Made by a program: the position numbers and the translations under genes
The notes under the pieces: model-generated
The model's database searches: none
What the model was told of the DNA's origin: nothing
The model's input: the letters and a program-made list of their open reading frames with translations, nothing else
Source: Comamonadaceae bacterium
GTDB lineage: Bacteria; Pseudomonadota; Gammaproteobacteria; Burkholderiales; Burkholderiaceae_C
Direction: 5' to 3'
Assembly (NCBI GenBank): GCA_027490925.1
Contig: JAIXXF010000033.1
Location: 1-64,000, forward strand
DNA length: 64,000 bases
Part shown: positions 2-6,589 of the stretch, one piece after another
How the letters are laid out: each line of letters starts with the position of its first letter
Numbering within the stretch: position 1 is the first letter of the stretch

Positions 2-1360
2 AACCTGCCCCTGAACGTGCTGGGTATTCTGTCCAACGAGTTGCTGTTGGCCATTCCGTTTTTCACCCTGATGGGCGCAATCCTAGAGAAGTGCGGCCTG
101 GCGGAAGACCTGCTTGACTCCATGGGCCAGTTGTTTGGTCCGGCGCGAGGCGGCTTGGGGTATGCGGTCATCGCGGTGGGGTTCATCCTTGGCGCGATCA
201 CCGGCACAGTGGCAGGCCAGGTGATCGCCATGGCCATGATCGCGCTGCCGGTGATGATGCGCTACGGCTACAACATGCGCTACGCCACCGGTGTGCTGGC
301 CGCATCGGGCACCATCACCCAACTGGTCCCCCCTTCGTTGGTGTTGGTGGTGATGGCTGATCAATTGGGCCGCTCGGTGGGGGACATGTACAAGGGTGCC
401 TGGGGTCCCTCGATCCTGCAGGTCCTGATTTTTGCGGTCTACACCTTCGCGCTGACAAAGTGGCGGCCTGCCGATTTGCCCGGGTTGCCGCCAGAGGCGC
501 GTTCGCTGCAGGGTTGGGCGCTCTGGAAGAAATGCTTGCGTGGCATCGTGCCCTCGGCCATTTTGATTTTCGCTGTGCTGGGGAGCATGGGTGGATTGCC
601 CGGCATCGGTACCGCCATTGCCACCCCCACCGAGGCTGGCGCGATGGGCGCTGTGGGCGCATTCATTCTGGCGGGCTTGCATCGTCGCCTGAGCTGGCCG
701 CTGTTGAAGGACACGCTGGCAGGCACCATGCGCATCACGGCGATGGTGGTGTTCATCCTGATCGGGTCGCGGGTGTTTTCGCTGGTGTTCCAAGGGGTGG
801 ACGGTGCCAAGTGGATCGAACACCTGCTGTCTGGTTTGCCCGGCGGACAGACCGGTTTTTTGATCGTCGTCAACGTCTTCGTTTTCTTTCTGGCGTTTTT
901 TCTCGACTTCTTTGAGATCGCCTTCATCATCTTGCCGCTGCTCGCGCCGGTCGCCGACAAGCTGGGCATCGACATGATCTGGTTCGGTGTGTTGCTGTGT
1001 GTGAACATGCAGACCAGCTTCATGCACCCGCCGTTTGGTTTTGCGCTGTTCTACCTGCGTGGCATTTCAGACACGTTGTTCAAGAACGGTTCACTGCCCA
1101 ACAAGGTGTTGTCCAAAGACATCTATTTGGGCGCCATTCCCTTTGTGCTGCTGCAGTTGTTGTTGGTCGTGATCGTGATTTTTGTACCGCAGACGGTCAC
1201 CGTGTTTTTGGATAAACCACCAGTGATCGATCTGGACAAGGTCGAGATGCCTGCGCCGGACCTGCCCGCACCAGCCGACGACCAAAGTCCGATGAACGAC
1301 TTGTTGCAACAGGCCGCGCCGTCACAGCCGCCCAACCCGGCGGGCAACGCCCCGCGCTGA
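2..1360 (+). CDS. TRAP transporter large permease (DctM family), 5' end outside window
   Basis: Inner-membrane large subunit of a tripartite ATP-independent periplasmic transporter, which imports an organic acid with a periplasmic binding protein driven by an ion gradient. The reading frame is open from base 2, before the first in-window start at 17, so the true start lies upstream. The protein is a series of hydrophobic helices with the family-typical segment GAITGTVAGQVIAMA near residue 55 and long membrane spans to about residue 395. An acidic, Pro/Ala-rich tail of about 50 residues follows the last helix. The small permease and binding protein should be upstream. Substrate cannot be told from sequence. 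Confidence 0.9.
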   Translation, partial: NLPLNVLGILSNELLLAIPFFTLMGAILEKCGLAEDLLDSMGQLFGPARGGLGYAVIAVGFILGAITGTVAGQVIAMAMIALPVMMRYGYNMRYATGVLAASGTITQLVPPSLVLVVMADQLGRSVGDMYKGAWGPSILQVLIFAVYTFALTKWRPADLPGLPPEARSLQGWALWKKCLRGIVPSAILIFAVLGSMGGLPGIGTAIATPTEAGAMGAVGAFILAGLHRRLSWPLLKDTLAGTMRITAMVVFILIGSRVFSLVFQGVDGAKWIEHLLSGLPGGQTGFLIVVNVFVFFLAFFLDFFEIAFIILPLLAPVADKLGIDMIWFGVLLCVNMQTSFMHPPFGFALFYLRGISDTLFKNGSLPNKVLSKDIYLGAIPFVLLQLLLVVIVIFVPQTVTVFLDKPPVIDLDKVEMPAPDLPAPADDQSPMNDLLQQAAPSQPPNPAGNAPR

Positions 1361-1361
1361 C

Positions 1362-1817
1362 GTGTCGTTGGCTGGACCTGAACAGGCAGTGGGCGGCCCG
1401 TCGTTCCCGTGGCTGGTCAAGCTGCTGGCCACCGGCCTGGTGGCGGTGGTGGTGTTTTGGGGCCAGCAAGCCGCGCGCACCTTGGCCCGGTCGGAACTCG
1501 GCTGGGGGGTGTACGCCACGGTGCTGGTCACAGGCGCGGTGGTGGTGTTTTGCTATGCGGTGGTGCTGTTCAGCCGAACTGAGGTGTGCACCAGCCACAT
1601 TCGCCAGCGCGGCCCTTGGCCCACCGAGGTGGCACTGGCGGACATCACCCAAGCCAAACTGATCGACTTGCCGGGACTGCGCTGGCTCATCGCGCCGCGC
1701 CTGATGGTGCGCGTCAAGGGTTGGGGCGCTTACACCTTCTATGCGGCCGAGCCACTGGTGATAGAGCGCTTCAAGGCCCTGGGCTTGGGGCAGCTGCCCA
1801 GGCGCCCGACGGTCTGA
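1362..1817 (+). CDS. small membrane protein with PH-like C-terminal domain, unknown function
   Basis: A 151-residue protein starting at a GTG one base after the TRAP permease stop, so it is probably co-transcribed. Two hydrophobic helices are visible, about residues 15-36 and 47-70. They are followed by a soluble beta-rich part of about 75 residues that resembles bacterial PH-like domains (charged, ending in a helix that begins VIERFKALG). I do not recognise a specific family. Its position behind the TRAP gene is the only functional hint and may mean nothing more than read-through. Confidence 0.6.
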   Translation: MSLAGPEQAVGGPSFPWLVKLLATGLVAVVVFWGQQAARTLARSELGWGVYATVLVTGAVVVFCYAVVLFSRTEVCTSHIRQRGPWPTEVALADITQAKLIDLPGLRWLIAPRLMVRVKGWGAYTFYAAEPLVIERFKALGLGQLPRRPTV

Positions 1818-1903: not shown

Positions 1904-3187
1904 ATGGCCCACACCGACACTTTGCCCCCTGGCCTGACCGATACGCCCGCCGTACGCCGTGCTGGGCGGGACGCGCTGTCTCTGGCGCTGCTCGATGCGC
2001 GCAACCACACGCTCGACTTGATGGCCCAGTTGGGCGAGGCGCTGACCGATGTGCCCCCAGACATGGTGCCCCTGCCTCACCTGCCTTCGCCCTTGTGGCT
2101 GGCGGGCCGGGCTGGGTGGTTTCAAGAACGCTGGCTGGGCCGCAACCCACAGCGCCATCTGGGGCCTTTGTGCGACCCCACTGCTTTGCGCTTGGGCTCG
2201 ATTGAGCCAATGGCCGACGCCTGGTGGGAGGTGGACATGGTGTCGGCCTTTGAGATCGACGACCTGGCCCTGCCCGCGCCCGATCAGGTGCGCACTTACC
2301 TGCTCGACGTGCTGGAGAGCAGCCTGTCTTTGCTGGACACGACCGCTGAAACCGACCAGGCCTTGTATTTTTTCCGCCTCGCGCTGTTCCATGAGGACGC
2401 CTGTGGCGAGGCCATGGTCCAGGTGGCGCAGGCGTTTGGTGTTCCGCTCAAGCTGCACGCCAGCGGGTCGGCGGGTCTGGTGCTGCGCGAGCCCTTGCGC
2501 ATGCCCGCCACCCGCTGGACGATGGGCATGGCCTCCGACAGCGGCGTGGGCCAGGTTGCCCCGACAGGCTTTACTTTTGACAACGAAACCCCAGCGCACA
2601 TGGTGCACGTGCCCGAGTTTGAGATCGATGCCCAGCCGGTGAGTTGGGCGCAGTTTGTCGAGTTCGTGGACGACGGCGGTTACGACGACGCCAGCCACTG
2701 GCACCCAGACGGCTGGGCCTGGTTGCAGCAAGCGGTACTCGAAGAGGGGCGGCGCGCACCGCGCCATGTGGAACAGATCGGTGTGGCCAGCGGAGCGGTG
2801 CTGCAACAGCGGTTTGGTCAGCCGGTGCGGGTCGCGGGCCATCAACCGGTGGTGCATGTGACCTGGTGGGAGGCCGATGCCTGGTGCCGCTGGGCCGGGC
2901 GTCGCCTGCCGACCGAGGTGGAGTGGGAAGCGGCCGCCCACACCGCGGCCGGTCGGGGCTGGCGTTGGGGTGAGGTCTGGGAATGGACCGCCGGACATTT
3001 CCGGCCTTATCCGGGGTTCAGCGCGGGGCCCTGGGATGGCTACTCGGTGCCCTGGTTCGGCCGGGCGCGGACCCTGAGGGGGGCATCGTTCGCCACGCGT
3101 CAGCGCATGAAACACCCCAAGTACCGCGGCTTTGCCTTGCCGGAAGACGACACGCGCTTCGTGGGGTTTCGCTCGTGTGCGGTCTGA
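1904..3187 (+). CDS. EgtB/SenA-like sulfoxide/selenoxide-synthase family protein with degenerate metal site
   Basis: A 427-residue protein with the two-domain plan of EgtB and SenA, non-heme iron enzymes that join a Cys- or selenosugar-derived group to hercynine (ergothioneine or selenoneine synthesis). The DinB-like part covers about residues 20-190 and the FGE-sulfatase-like part about 205-425, ending with the family-typical RGASFATR and VGFRSC segments. The closest resemblance is to SenA (motifs GWFQERW and LFHED). In known enzymes three His bind iron: one in an xxHxxWFxE motif and two in HExxH. Here the first is Arg69, the second His163 is kept, and the third is Cys167. No senB (glycosyltransferase) or senC (SelD-like) gene lies nearby. 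It could be an inactive paralogue or an enzyme with changed chemistry. Confidence 0.75.
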   Translation: MAHTDTLPPGLTDTPAVRRAGRDALSLALLDARNHTLDLMAQLGEALTDVPPDMVPLPHLPSPLWLAGRAGWFQERWLGRNPQRHLGPLCDPTALRLGSIEPMADAWWEVDMVSAFEIDDLALPAPDQVRTYLLDVLESSLSLLDTTAETDQALYFFRLALFHEDACGEAMVQVAQAFGVPLKLHASGSAGLVLREPLRMPATRWTMGMASDSGVGQVAPTGFTFDNETPAHMVHVPEFEIDAQPVSWAQFVEFVDDGGYDDASHWHPDGWAWLQQAVLEEGRRAPRHVEQIGVASGAVLQQRFGQPVRVAGHQPVVHVTWWEADAWCRWAGRRLPTEVEWEAAAHTAAGRGWRWGEVWEWTAGHFRPYPGFSAGPWDGYSVPWFGRARTLRGASFATRQRMKHPKYRGFALPEDDTRFVGFRSCAV

Positions 3188-3208: not shown

Positions 3209-4309
3209 TCAGGTCTTTTTCTTAAAGTGCCACCATGGCAGTTCTCGGCTGAGTGGCAGCACCTCGCCACTGCGTTGCGGCTGGTAGCCTGCGATGCCCG
3301 CCAGTTTGCGCTGCCAGGCGCTGTGCTTCAGCAACTTCAGCAGCACCTGGGTCGCGTCTTGTTGCAGCGCTGACTTGAGGCAGACCAGGTGGTACTGCTC
3401 CTCCAGCAGGGGTACGAAACCAAGCCCGCGGGTTTGGGCGGCCGACGCGATGCCGAGTCCGGCATCCGCCTCGCCGCTGGCCACCGTTTGGGCCACCGCC
3501 GAATGGGACGGCTCGGCCCGTTCATAACCCATGAGCCGGGCACCATCGACACCGGCCTCGCCAAGCAGTTCGTCCAGCAGCACCCGCGTGCCAGTGCCCA
3601 GGGTCCGGTTCACAAAGCGAACGCCGGGCCGCAGCAGGTCCTGCAGCTTGGTCAACTGCAGCGGGTTGCCGCGTGCGACGATCAAGCCTTGTTGTCGACG
3701 GGCGAAACCAATCACTTTGTGCAAACCAGGTTTGAGCAGCGGGCGGTAGGTGCGTGCGGTGCGGGAGTCTCGGCCCGGTTGTAGCCGGGTGTGGAAACCC
3801 GCCAGGCTGCAGCGGCCTTCGTTGAGCGCGCTGATTGCATCCACGCTGCCAGTGAAGCGCACGTCCAGGTACAGGGCCTGTGTGGCTGCGTGTTCACGCA
3901 GGGTGGTGAGTGCGTCGTCGTGGCTGGCGTAGAAGCTGAGCACGTGGGCGGCCGGGTCAAAGGCCACTGCGAAAGCACGCTCCAGGTCGGCCCGCAAGGC
4001 CTCGATTTGCGGAGCCAGTCGGGCTTGGGCTTGTCGCTCGGCCCACAGCAGCTTCTGGCCAAACTCACTCAATTTGGCGGACTGCCCTTTTTCCCAAACC
4101 AGCAATTCGTTGCCGAGCTGCTGTTCCCAGCGTTTGAGCTCGCCCCACACATGCCGGTAAGACAGATCAAGGTGGCGCGCGGCGGCGGAGATAGAACCGT
4201 GTTGTTGCACCGCTTGCAGGGTGTCGAGCAAAGGGTTACGGATCAGGGTCTGACCGGCCGCAGTCGCTTCCAGCGGCGACAACTCATAGCTCAAGTCAAT
4301 CTTATGCAC
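3209..4309 (-). CDS. ModE-type HTH regulator with periplasmic-binding-protein-like effector domain
   Basis: A 366-residue transcription factor starting at GTG. Residues about 25-110 form a LysR/ModE-like winged helix (GSISAAARHLDLSYRHVW). Residues about 120-345 resemble the PBP-like domain found next to molybdopterin proteins (segments TLGTGTRVLLDELL and GEADAGLGIASAA). The fold suggests binding of a small oxyanion or cofactor, and its divergent position 50 bp from tupB suggests that it controls tungstate uptake. This is inference from context. It lacks the two Mop/TOBE domains of true ModE, which is encoded separately at 10675. It converges on the EgtB-like gene, with only 21 bp between the stops. 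Confidence 0.75.
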   Translation of the reverse strand: MHKIDLSYELSPLEATAAGQTLIRNPLLDTLQAVQQHGSISAAARHLDLSYRHVWGELKRWEQQLGNELLVWEKGQSAKLSEFGQKLLWAERQAQARLAPQIEALRADLERAFAVAFDPAAHVLSFYASHDDALTTLREHAATQALYLDVRFTGSVDAISALNEGRCSLAGFHTRLQPGRDSRTARTYRPLLKPGLHKVIGFARRQQGLIVARGNPLQLTKLQDLLRPGVRFVNRTLGTGTRVLLDELLGEAGVDGARLMGYERAEPSHSAVAQTVASGEADAGLGIASAAQTRGLGFVPLLEEQYHLVCLKSALQQDATQVLLKLLKHSAWQRKLAGIAGYQPQRSGEVLPLSRELPWWHFKKKT

Positions 4310-4359: not shown

Positions 4360-5088
4360 ATGAATTCACTGACCGACAGCGCCACCACCGCGCTGAATTT
4401 GATCGTCGCCTTCGATGGGCAATTGCTGGCCATCGTTGGGCGTTCGCTGACCGTCAGTGCTTTGGCCTTGTTGTTCGCCAGCGCCGGGGGCGTGGCGGTG
4501 GGTGCGTGGCTGGGTGTGGCGCGGTTCCGCGGCCGCGACGCGGTTTTGTCGGTGTTGAACACACTGCTGGCCTTGCCTTCGGTGGTGGTGGGCCTGGTGA
4601 TTTACCTGTTGTTGTCCCGCAGCGGCCCGTTGGGGTTTCTGGGGTGGTTGTTCTCATTGAAGGCCATGGTGTTGGCGCAAACGGTGCTGGTTTTGCCTGT
4701 GGTCATCGCGCTCACCCGGCAGTTGATCGACGACGCAGAGCGCGCGCACGGCGAACAGCTTCGGTCGCTGGGGGCATCCACCAGGGTGCGCAGTTTGCTG
4801 CTGGTTTGGGACGAGCGCTTCGCCCTGCTGACAGTATTGATCGCGGCTTTTGGTCGCGCGGTGTCTGAGGTGGGGGCGGTGATGGTGGTGGGCGGCAACA
4901 TCGACGGCTTCACCCGTGTCATGACCACCGCGATCGCGCTGGAGACCAGCAAGGGCGATTTGCCGTTGGCCCTCGCCTTGGGGCTGGTGCTGCTGGCGGT
5001 GGTGCTGGTGCTCAATGCCAGCGTCACGCTGCTGCAGCGCTGGCGCCGGGTGCGTGGCGAGGCAAGGGGGCCGTCGTGGGTGCCCTGA
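4360..5088 (+). CDS. tupB: tungstate ABC transporter permease TupB
   Basis: Inner-membrane permease of a tungstate (or molybdate) importer, 242 residues with about five or six membrane helices. The cytoplasmic loop binding the ATPase is visible around residues 125-165 (EQLRSLGAS). The segment GAVMVVGGNIDGFTRVMTTAIALE is typical of TupB/ModB-type permeases. It is the first gene of a coupled operon; tupC starts 13 bp before its end. No strong Shine-Dalgarno precedes the ATG, and an imperfect dyad spans the region just before it. Tungstate rather than molybdate is inferred from the TupA binding protein encoded two genes downstream. Confidence 0.88.
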   Translation: MNSLTDSATTALNLIVAFDGQLLAIVGRSLTVSALALLFASAGGVAVGAWLGVARFRGRDAVLSVLNTLLALPSVVVGLVIYLLLSRSGPLGFLGWLFSLKAMVLAQTVLVLPVVIALTRQLIDDAERAHGEQLRSLGASTRVRSLLLVWDERFALLTVLIAAFGRAVSEVGAVMVVGGNIDGFTRVMTTAIALETSKGDLPLALALGLVLLAVVLVLNASVTLLQRWRRVRGEARGPSWVP

Positions 5089-5765
5089 TCGAACTCCGTC
5101 AGGCGGGTGTGCGCTTTGGCCGGGTGCAAGCCCTCAGCGGTGTGGACTTGGTGGTGCATCGCGGTGAGCGGGTGGCGCTGATCGGTGGGAACGGCAGCGG
5201 CAAGAGCACCCTGTTGCGTTTGCTGCATGGCCTGTTGCGGCCTGACCAAGGTCAGCGCACAGTCGCGCCTGCGGCGCGGCAGGCCATGGTGTTCCAGCGC
5301 CCGCATATGTTGCGCCTGAGTGTGCTGACCCAGGTGGCCTTGGGTCCTTGGCTGGCGGGTACCGGCTGGGCCGAGGCCCAGCAGCGCGCCACCGTGGCAC
5401 TGGCCAAGGTGTCGCTGCAGGCCGAATCCGGGCGACTGGCCAGCAAACTGTCTGGGGGGCAGCAGCAGCGGGTCGCCCTGGCCCGAGCGTGGGCGCTGGC
5501 GCCCGACGTGCTGTTGCTGGACGAGCCCACCGCCAGCTTGGACCCCCACGCCAAGCGCGAGGTCGAGGGCCTGGTACAGGACTTCGCGGCGCACGGCATG
5601 ACCCTTGTCTTTGCCAGCCATCACCTCGGCCAAGTCAAGCGCTTGGCCACCCGCGTGGTGTACTTGGAACGTGGCCGGGTGCTGGCCGACCTGCCGGTCC
5701 ACGACTTTTTTCATGGCCCCCTGCCCGAGGCGGTCGATTTTTTCGTCAAAGGAGAGCTTTCATGA
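5076..5765 (+). CDS. tupC: tungstate ABC transporter ATP-binding protein TupC
   Basis: Cytoplasmic ATPase of the tungstate importer, 229 residues. Walker A is GGNGSGKST (about residues 34-42), the ABC signature LSGGQQQRVALARA (about 127-140) and Walker B VLLLDEPTASLD (about 147-158). There is no C-terminal TOBE domain, unlike the ModC at 8007. The GTG start at 5076 lies inside the end of tupB, and the TGA overlaps the tupA ATG, so translation is probably coupled throughout. Confidence 0.9.
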   Translation: MGALIELRQAGVRFGRVQALSGVDLVVHRGERVALIGGNGSGKSTLLRLLHGLLRPDQGQRTVAPAARQAMVFQRPHMLRLSVLTQVALGPWLAGTGWAEAQQRATVALAKVSLQAESGRLASKLSGGQQQRVALARAWALAPDVLLLDEPTASLDPHAKREVEGLVQDFAAHGMTLVFASHHLGQVKRLATRVVYLERGRVLADLPVHDFFHGPLPEAVDFFVKGELS

Positions 5766-6589
5766 TGGTTTCCAAGCGTTTCGGGCTTGTAGCCCTTTTC
5801 AAAACGGCCGCTGTAGCTACTGTTTTTGTAGCGTCTGCGGCGCTGCATGCGCAAAGCATCACCATGGCCTCCACCACCTCCACCGAACAGTCGGGCCTGT
5901 TTGGGCACCTGCTGCCAGAGTTCAAGAAGGCCAGCGGTGTGGACGTCAAGGTCGTCGCTCTGGGCACCGGTCAGGCCCTGGACATGGGCCGCCGGGGCGA
6001 CGCCGACGTGCTCTTTGTGCACGACCAGGTGGCAGAAGACAAACTCGTGGCCGATGGCTTTGGCATCAAGCGCCTGCCCGTCATGTACAACGACTTCGTG
6101 TTGGTCGGGCCCAAGAGCGACCCGGCGGGCGCCAAGGGCAACGACATCGTGGCAGCCCTCAAAAAGCTCTCTGGCGGTAACGCGAGTTTCGTCTCGCGCG
6201 GCGACAAGAGCGGCACCCACGCCGCTGAGCTGCGGTTCTGGCGCCAGGCGGGCGCAGAGTCCGCCAAAGGCAGTGGCTACAAAGAGTGTGGCTGCGGCAT
6301 GGGCCCGGCGCTGAACATTGCGTCGTCCGACAACGCCTATGTGCTGACCGACCGCGGCACCTGGCTGAGCTTCAAGAACCGGGGCGATTTGGTGGTGCTG
6401 GTGGAAGGTGACAACCGCCTGTTCAACCAGTACGGGGTGATCGCAGTCAATCCCGCCAAACACCCCCATGTCAAAGTGGCCGACGCGCAGAAATTCGTCG
6501 ACTGGGTGGTGTCGCCCACTGGCCAAGCCACCATCGCCAGCTACAAGATCGGTGGAGAGCAGTTGTTCTTCCCGAACGCCGCCAAGTGA
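5762..6589 (+). CDS. tupA: tungstate-binding periplasmic protein TupA
   Basis: Periplasmic solute-binding protein of the Tup system, 275 residues. A signal peptide covers about residues 1-30 with cleavage near LHAQ-S. The mature part begins with the TupA hallmark TTSTEQSGLF and continues with GTGQALDMGRRGDADVLFVH; these conserved Thr/Ser/Gly residues form the oxyanion site in the family. The start ATG at 5762 overlaps the tupC stop (ATGA) and has a good Shine-Dalgarno, AAAGGAGA, at 5748-5755. A second ATG follows at once. The hydrophobic core of the signal peptide is encoded by a copy of a dispersed ~51-bp repeat (5783-5833), which is unusual. Confidence 0.9.
   Translation: MMVSKRFGLVALFKTAAVATVFVASAALHAQSITMASTTSTEQSGLFGHLLPEFKKASGVDVKVVALGTGQALDMGRRGDADVLFVHDQVAEDKLVADGFGIKRLPVMYNDFVLVGPKSDPAGAKGNDIVAALKKLSGGNASFVSRGDKSGTHAAELRFWRQAGAESAKGSGYKECGCGMGPALNIASSDNAYVLTDRGTWLSFKNRGDLVVLVEGDNRLFNQYGVIAVNPAKHPHVKVADAQKFVDWVVSPTGQATIASYKIGGEQLFFPNAAK
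5783..5833. repeat. dispersed ~51-bp palindromic element inside tupA signal sequence
   Basis: GGGCTTGTAGCCC (5783-5795), then GCTGTAGCTACTG (from 5810) running to TTTTTGTAGCG at 5833: 51 bp with the same two modules as the copies at 14122, 20498, 46546 and 54941. Its length is 17 codons, so it keeps frame. It encodes the hydrophobic core of the TupA signal peptide. Confidence 0.6.

Follow-up and report, generated by a model that had tools for sequence, protein, structure and literature searches.

A probably inactive selenoneine synthase homolog of the SenA2 lineage, retained under purifying selection in a Comamonadaceae bacterium

The analyzed window, a stretch of 64,000 nucleotides from a Comamonadaceae bacterium, contains a gene for a homolog of the selenoneine synthase SenA, and the locus raises the question of whether its product is still an enzyme and, if not, why it is kept. 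The gene starts with ATG and encodes a protein of 427 aa composed of a DinB-like helical domain and an FGE-like domain (Table 1). The top curated model for this protein is NCBIfam NF041186 (SenA), with a score of 394.6 bits that is below the 420-bit cut-off, followed by TIGR03440 (EgtB) with 211.1 bits, which is below the 360-bit cut-off. By sequence, the PDB structures that it matches best are two of SenA, 8k5i and 8ryz (E about 1e-83). An AlphaFold2 model of moderate quality (pLDDT 70.4, pTM 0.67) is structurally nearest to SenA with hercynine (8k5j; Z 35.8, rmsd 2.7, 43% identity over 385 aligned residues). The closest structure after SenA is OvsA, the selenoxide synthase of ovoselenol synthesis (8u41, 8u42, 8ux5; Z 28.8), an active enzyme that the window protein matches less well than SenA; EgtB shares the fold superfamily (4x8b; Z 27.2). 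In this model, the two-domain fold of V. paradoxus SenA (8k5i, 8k5j, 8ryz) is retained.

Table 1. Features of the window at the SenA2-type gene and its neighbors
Feature	Position	Strand	Basis or remark
TRAP transporter DctM	17..1360	+	domain search
151-aa reading frame between dctM and the SenA2 gene	1362-1817		no Pfam match
SenA2-type protein, active site lost	1904..3187	+	427 aa; curated models, structures, AF2
Codon 69, CGG = Arg, replaces metal His (MthEgtB His51)	2108..2110	+	sequence, structure alignment
Codon 110, GTG = Val, replaces SenA-invariant Ser	2231..2233	+	sequence, row comparison
Codon 163, CAT = His, sole metal His kept (MthEgtB His134)	2390..2392	+	sequence, alignment
Codon 167, TGT = Cys, replaces metal His (MthEgtB His138)	2402..2404	+	sequence, alignment
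Codon 377, TGG = Trp, replaces catalytic Tyr (MthEgtB Tyr377)	3032..3034	+	sequence, alignment
Codon 409, GGC = Gly, replaces hercynine-site Asn	3128..3130	+	sequence, alignment, 8ux5
LysR-type HTH + PBP-domain regulator	3209..4309	-	domain search
ABC permease, TupB by place	4360..5088	+	domain search, locus comparison
ABC ATPase, TupC by place	5076..5765	+	domain search, locus comparison
TupA-like tungstate-binding protein	5762..6589	+	249 bits to NF041772, below 400-bit cut-off

In contrast to the fold, most of the active site of SenA is gone. Arg69, His163, and Cys167 were aligned by HMMER with His52, His135, and His139 of the M. thermoresistibile EgtB chain in 4x8b (positions counted by hand and offset by one from the published numbering), which correspond to the iron ligands His51, His134, and His138. 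The SenA structures 8k5i and 8ryz have His in all three metal places. A preliminary description of this DNA had reported the two replaced histidines and the retained one, and both the codons and the alignment bear it out; three further losses had escaped it. Trp377 occupies the place of M. thermoresistibile EgtB Tyr377 (chain position 378), whose replacement by Phe dramatically reduces the sulfoxide synthase activity according to a review (PMC10903977). Val110 replaces a Ser that is invariant across 18 rows of SenA proper, and Gly409 falls in the alignment at the place of the Q430N substitution of OvsA, which together with M401Y and A431F defines a hercynine-binding variant (title of 8ux5). 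Arg69 and Cys167 are neither a chance change nor a read error, because an orthologue from the same genus with 83% identity (G169), present in a separate record, has both changes; a third member of the genus (G054) combines His69 with Cys167. Neither the model score, nor the three-histidine iron site, nor Tyr377 together with Asn409 places the window protein within SenA, and both its score and the loss of the metal histidines and Tyr377 separate it from EgtB.

A search of 200 genomes of the family with the window protein gave matches in 158 genomes, many of them to other EgtB-like proteins; loci of the type studied here were taken from 74 genomes, with weaker or partial rows (e.g., G056, G083, G041, and G094) left out of all counts. 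In a quick tree built with masked metal columns, 84 rows separate into a clade of 18 senB-linked rows (SenA proper) and a clade of 66 rows that includes the window protein and that we named SenA2 (each clade with SH-aLRT 100). The grouping of the window protein with SenA2, apart from SenA proper, was obtained in both quick trees that were built (SH-aLRT 100). All three metal histidines are present in 18/18 rows of SenA proper, whereas the 66 SenA2 rows comprise 17 with three histidines and 49 without. A scan of named genomes was restricted to the 80 top-ranking of at least 562 relatives, many from Polaromonas and Rhodoferax and others from Curvibacter, Hylemonella, Ramlibacter, and Comamonadaceae, and these loci are therefore biased to close relatives. 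Merging of identical cores reduced 164 rows to 154 for paired tests and left 162 rows in a larger tree with 25 active-site columns masked; like the first tree, it is a quick search, and rows L046, L047, and L106 lie on very long branches.

The active site of SenA2 is kept or lost in an all-or-none manner, and its states fall into three classes. Among 144 rows, 61 are intact (Tyr377, Ser110, and three histidines kept), 70 lack Tyr377 and Ser110 along with one or more of the metal histidines, and 13 lack Tyr377 and Ser110 with all three histidines still in place; no other combination of these states was found among them. In all, 83 rows lack Tyr377 and Ser110, including 2 that are gapped at position 377 and were scored as lacking Tyr. 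On the 162-row tree, the Tyr377 state must have changed at least 11 times and the metal state 16 times, and the rows without Tyr377 form 17 maximal clades, one clade of copies with a lost site reaching 37 rows. As judged from the 13 intermediate rows, the loss of Tyr377 and Ser110 seems to precede that of the histidines. In paired tests on starred branches, the median p was 0.125 for metal vs. Tyr377 and 0.25 for senB vs. metal, in the same direction as the counts and with too few branches for significance. We consider it quite probable that the window gene encodes a selenoneine synthase of SenA2 descent that is catalytically dead and retained for some other job; its inactivity is deduced from the loss of the active-site residues, and SenA2 copies with such losses are called dead below. 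The earlier reading of the gene as a SenA paralogue with a lost iron site agrees with the tree, the alignments, and the same change in the sister species.

Close intact counterparts of the window protein were found in Polaromonas and Hylemonella (L112, L126, and L140; 57-60% identity). They have in common with it the lineage, the locus, and SenA2-specific residues, and differ by a full active site and by scores of 510-514 bits to the SenA model. Their locus bears on the origin of the window gene. By tblastn, neither senB nor selD nor egtD gave a hit in the 12 kb at the start of the window or in 17 kb around the gene of the sister genome. The preliminary remark that no senB or senC gene is near was accurate for the stretch tested, but it is misleading on origin, as a three-histidine SenA2 gene lies within 3.5 kb of senB, usually along with selD, in 26 loci, mostly from Polaromonas, of the named set (80 loci, the top-ranking of at least 562). 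Where the piece is long enough, the gene order is dxs, dctP, dctM, selD, senB, senA2, regulator, tupB, tupC, and tupA, individual loci lacking one or another gene. The right half of the window locus is the same as in the Polaromonas-type loci, and selD and senB are missing, which makes it most likely, as judged from gene order, that the window gene descended from a working selenoneine cluster at the same place. The 151-aa reading frame upstream of the gene has relatives with 40-46% identity near dctM in a few loci.

Domain annotation of the neighbors corroborated the described setting of the gene between a TRAP transporter and a tungstate island, and a component of tungstate or molybdate handling could be imagined from the downstream tupBCA genes. 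Where the flanking sequence sufficed (41 metal-lost loci), tup genes are located within 6 kb downstream in 13, as compared with 0/13 loci of SenA proper, and SenA2 and tupA occur together in 56/200 genomes (Fisher p 1e-4, ancestry uncorrected). The same 41 loci are linked more often with dctM upstream (20/41) and with dxs (21/41), so the tup linkage appears to be general synteny. In addition, of the 53 genomes with a metal-lost copy, 38 have tupA and 15 have neither tupA nor senB. The tungstate neighborhood looks like old inherited synteny that does not define the role of the protein, and we regard a function in tungstate handling as extremely improbable. The TupA-like proteins of this family score at most 253.5 bits against NF041772 (cut-off 400), so that none of the 200 genomes passes, with 122 showing a match. 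No paper linking selenoneine with tungstate was found in the literature searched.

The state of the SenA2 active site depends on the state of the pathway. All 29 SenA2 rows in which senB was seen in the sequence read have an intact site; a further 32 intact rows show no senB in the sequence read, short contigs being among them. At the genome level, where senB was counted as lacking if nothing exceeded the 300-bit cut-off of TIGR04348 and where some genomes are incomplete, 10 of the 74 genomes have an intact SenA2, and senB over the cut-off is present in all 10, with no second SenA locus detected in them at E up to 1e-25. In three of these genomes senB adjoins the SenA2 gene (G005, G045, and G101), in six it is located elsewhere in a group of egtD, senB, and selD without senA (G027, G002, G014, G145, G115, and G130), and the last one (G040) has senB and selD with no senA on the piece read. 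The remaining 64 genomes, with a non-intact SenA2, fall into two groups: senB does not reach the cut-off in 34, and the other 30 have it together with a separate SenA locus, which was read directly in 17 of the 30 and detected by search only, its active-site residues unread, in 13. The difference in senB presence between intact and non-intact genomes has a Fisher p of 0.0014 (ancestry uncorrected). The window genome belongs to the class with senB and a separate SenA locus, since senB is accompanied on its contig C21 by egtD, a senA with an intact site (465.9 bits), and a selD fusion, and the sister genome G169 has the same dead SenA2 and no senB over the cut-off.

Several features of these sen genes are worth recording. 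In the egtD-senB-selD groups without senA (L202, L203, L204, L205, L207, and L208), the only SenA found is the SenA2 elsewhere in the genome, and such genomes seem to be supplied with SenA from the SenA2 locus. The selD gene of the sen cluster in the window genome (L031:9848-12151) is fused to an N-terminal oxidoreductase domain (TIGR03169), and this fusion is matched over its whole length only in L048 and L099 among the 18 SenA-proper loci. The window genome also has another senB, with 67% identity to that of C21, at the very start of contig C9 (L191:240-1190), with no match to SenA2, selD, or egtD in the 16 kb read.

The loss of the old site could also mean that the pocket has been remodeled for a different reaction, in which a metal may or may not be bound by His163 and further residues. 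The replacements do recur: Trp377 is seen in 11 of the 17 Tyr377-less clades although the change from Tyr takes two base changes, and Pro110 and Arg167 are found repeatedly as well. Moreover, His69 and His163 are kept in 50 (76%) and 55 (83%) of 66 metal-lost rows, respectively, which exceeds most active-site columns, so that weak metal binding by these proteins is possible. Against a rebuilt enzyme, position 167 is very mixed (R23 H17 L7 V5 Q5 C3 I3 S1 W1 A1 in 66 sequences from 66 genomes), and the columns of Asn61, Glu66, His115, and Asn409 vary among the metal-lost rows. We looked through the SenA2 columns for a new invariant His, Cys, Asp, or Glu and found none special to dead rows in the DinB domain, His included; as a property of the clade, the suggested new metal site is not supported. 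Glu164 and Asp165 are conserved in SenA2 but mark no replacement site, because intact SenA2 have them equally and SenA proper mostly does. FGE uses a Cys pair; an FGE-type copper site was not seen, the conserved Cys328 and Cys425 being also common in SenA proper (18/18 and 14/18, respectively). Overall, a neofunctionalised enzyme seems unlikely.

Binding of a selenium or sulfur histidine betaine, also proposed from the preliminary reading, fares worse. A sensor or binding protein for selenoneine, hercynine, or a related betaine would accord with the SenA fold, with descent from a hercynine-binding enzyme, and with the presence of Tyr380 and Phe410 in the window protein. However, the hercynine-site Asn409, which is Gly here, is gone in 92% of the 66 metal-lost rows and kept in 8%, and senB does not reach the cut-off in 28 of the 53 genomes that carry a metal-lost copy. 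We hold such a role to be very unlikely.

The dead copies have nevertheless been kept under purifying selection. Between the window gene and its sister orthologue, both with Arg69 and Cys167, dS is 0.92 and dN 0.105, giving a dN/dS of 0.113, which is within the range of six neighbor genes of the same pair (0.083-0.163). Five other dead pairs gave 0.080, 0.085, 0.189, 0.284, and 0.285, four intact senB-linked pairs 0.070-0.154, one intact pair without adjoining senB 0.177, and a pair with three histidines and no Tyr377 0.117. These values bear on whether the gene is in the last stage of decay, following loss or duplication of the pathway. Such decay would fit the association of loss with pathway redundancy or absence and the two dead pairs near 0.28, which are above the intact pairs; but the full ranges, 0.08-0.29 for six dead pairs and 0.07-0.18 for five intact ones, are all well under 1, no internal stops occur in any of the rows listed from the 200-genome search, and one dead clade comprises 37 rows. 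Terminal decay is, in our judgment, scarcely credible. The picture of a retained pseudoenzyme, with the catalytic residues gone from a preserved SenA fold and constraint persisting after the loss, agrees better with these values.

The constraint is unevenly distributed along the protein. In the window pair, the C-terminal half (dN 0.084, dS 1.02) is more constrained than the helical half (dN 0.130, dS 0.84). Ninety columns that are invariant, or have a single exception, across SenA proper and senB-linked SenA2 are kept at a median of 95% in the 66 metal-lost rows, whereas Tyr377, Ser110, and His167 are kept in none of them, the loss of His167 being part of the criterion by which these rows were selected. 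Another 65 columns, invariant in senB-linked SenA2 and shared by less than half of SenA proper, are kept at a median of 80%. Twenty-one of these 65 are preserved in at least 94% of the metal-lost rows (e.g., Ser26, Leu27, Asn34, Asp257, Arg283, Arg284, Val299, Arg309, Gly352, and Asp416); they persist after the chemistry has presumably been lost and are not needed for SenA chemistry as such, because SenA proper lacks them. A list of 23 SenA2-specific positions chosen on mostly dead rows is partly circular, whereas the 65 columns were defined from senB-linked rows only. EgtB shares some of the SenA2-specific residues, e.g., Asp31 and Asn34 of the DARN segment, so the set is partly ancestral scaffold, and, as the SenA2-specific invariants are kept unevenly, the constraint on dead copies is partial.

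The sequences show that SenA2 serves as the pathway SenA at the dxs-dctP-dctM-selD-senB-senA2-regulator-tupBCA locus, as it still does in Polaromonas, and that none of the sampled genomes that lack senB or have another SenA has an intact SenA2; its state changed many times on the tree, and the scaffold remains under purifying selection. From this we propose the following course of events. Tyr377 and Ser110 would go first, then His167, Asn409, and the other histidines. A surviving SenA2 would no longer bind iron or hercynine in the old way and would act without catalysis, as a binding or scaffold protein, probably by way of its better conserved FGE-like half. More tentatively, and with some doubt on our part, SenA2 may have been bifunctional from the start, combining selenoneine synthesis with a second, metal-independent scaffold job that was kept by approximately 11 lineages as they discarded the selenium chemistry, often converging on Trp at the catalytic Tyr. 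If so, the second job would be a cellular function of a selenium-pathway protein for which nobody has looked. The repeated loss of the iron site in a retained protein provides a natural gradation, from the intact site through loss of Tyr and of one His to loss of two, in which the role of a selenium enzyme besides its chemistry can be asked about.

Our survey of the literature, which lay mostly outside subscription journals, returned nothing on point about inactive SenA or EgtB paralogues. In a plasmid collection, 118 records match the window protein, all with less than 60% identity and one covering 80% of the query. A putative pseudoenzyme branch of the SenA fold affects annotation. Six metal-lost relatives were scored with NF041186, and four of them (L129, L143, L178, and L077; 424-467 bits) are above 420 and would be named selenoneine synthase in spite of the lost metal His, the other two being below (401 and 343). 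The cut-off therefore does not separate live from dead proteins, and the capacity for selenoneine synthesis is unreadable from the SenA score alone.
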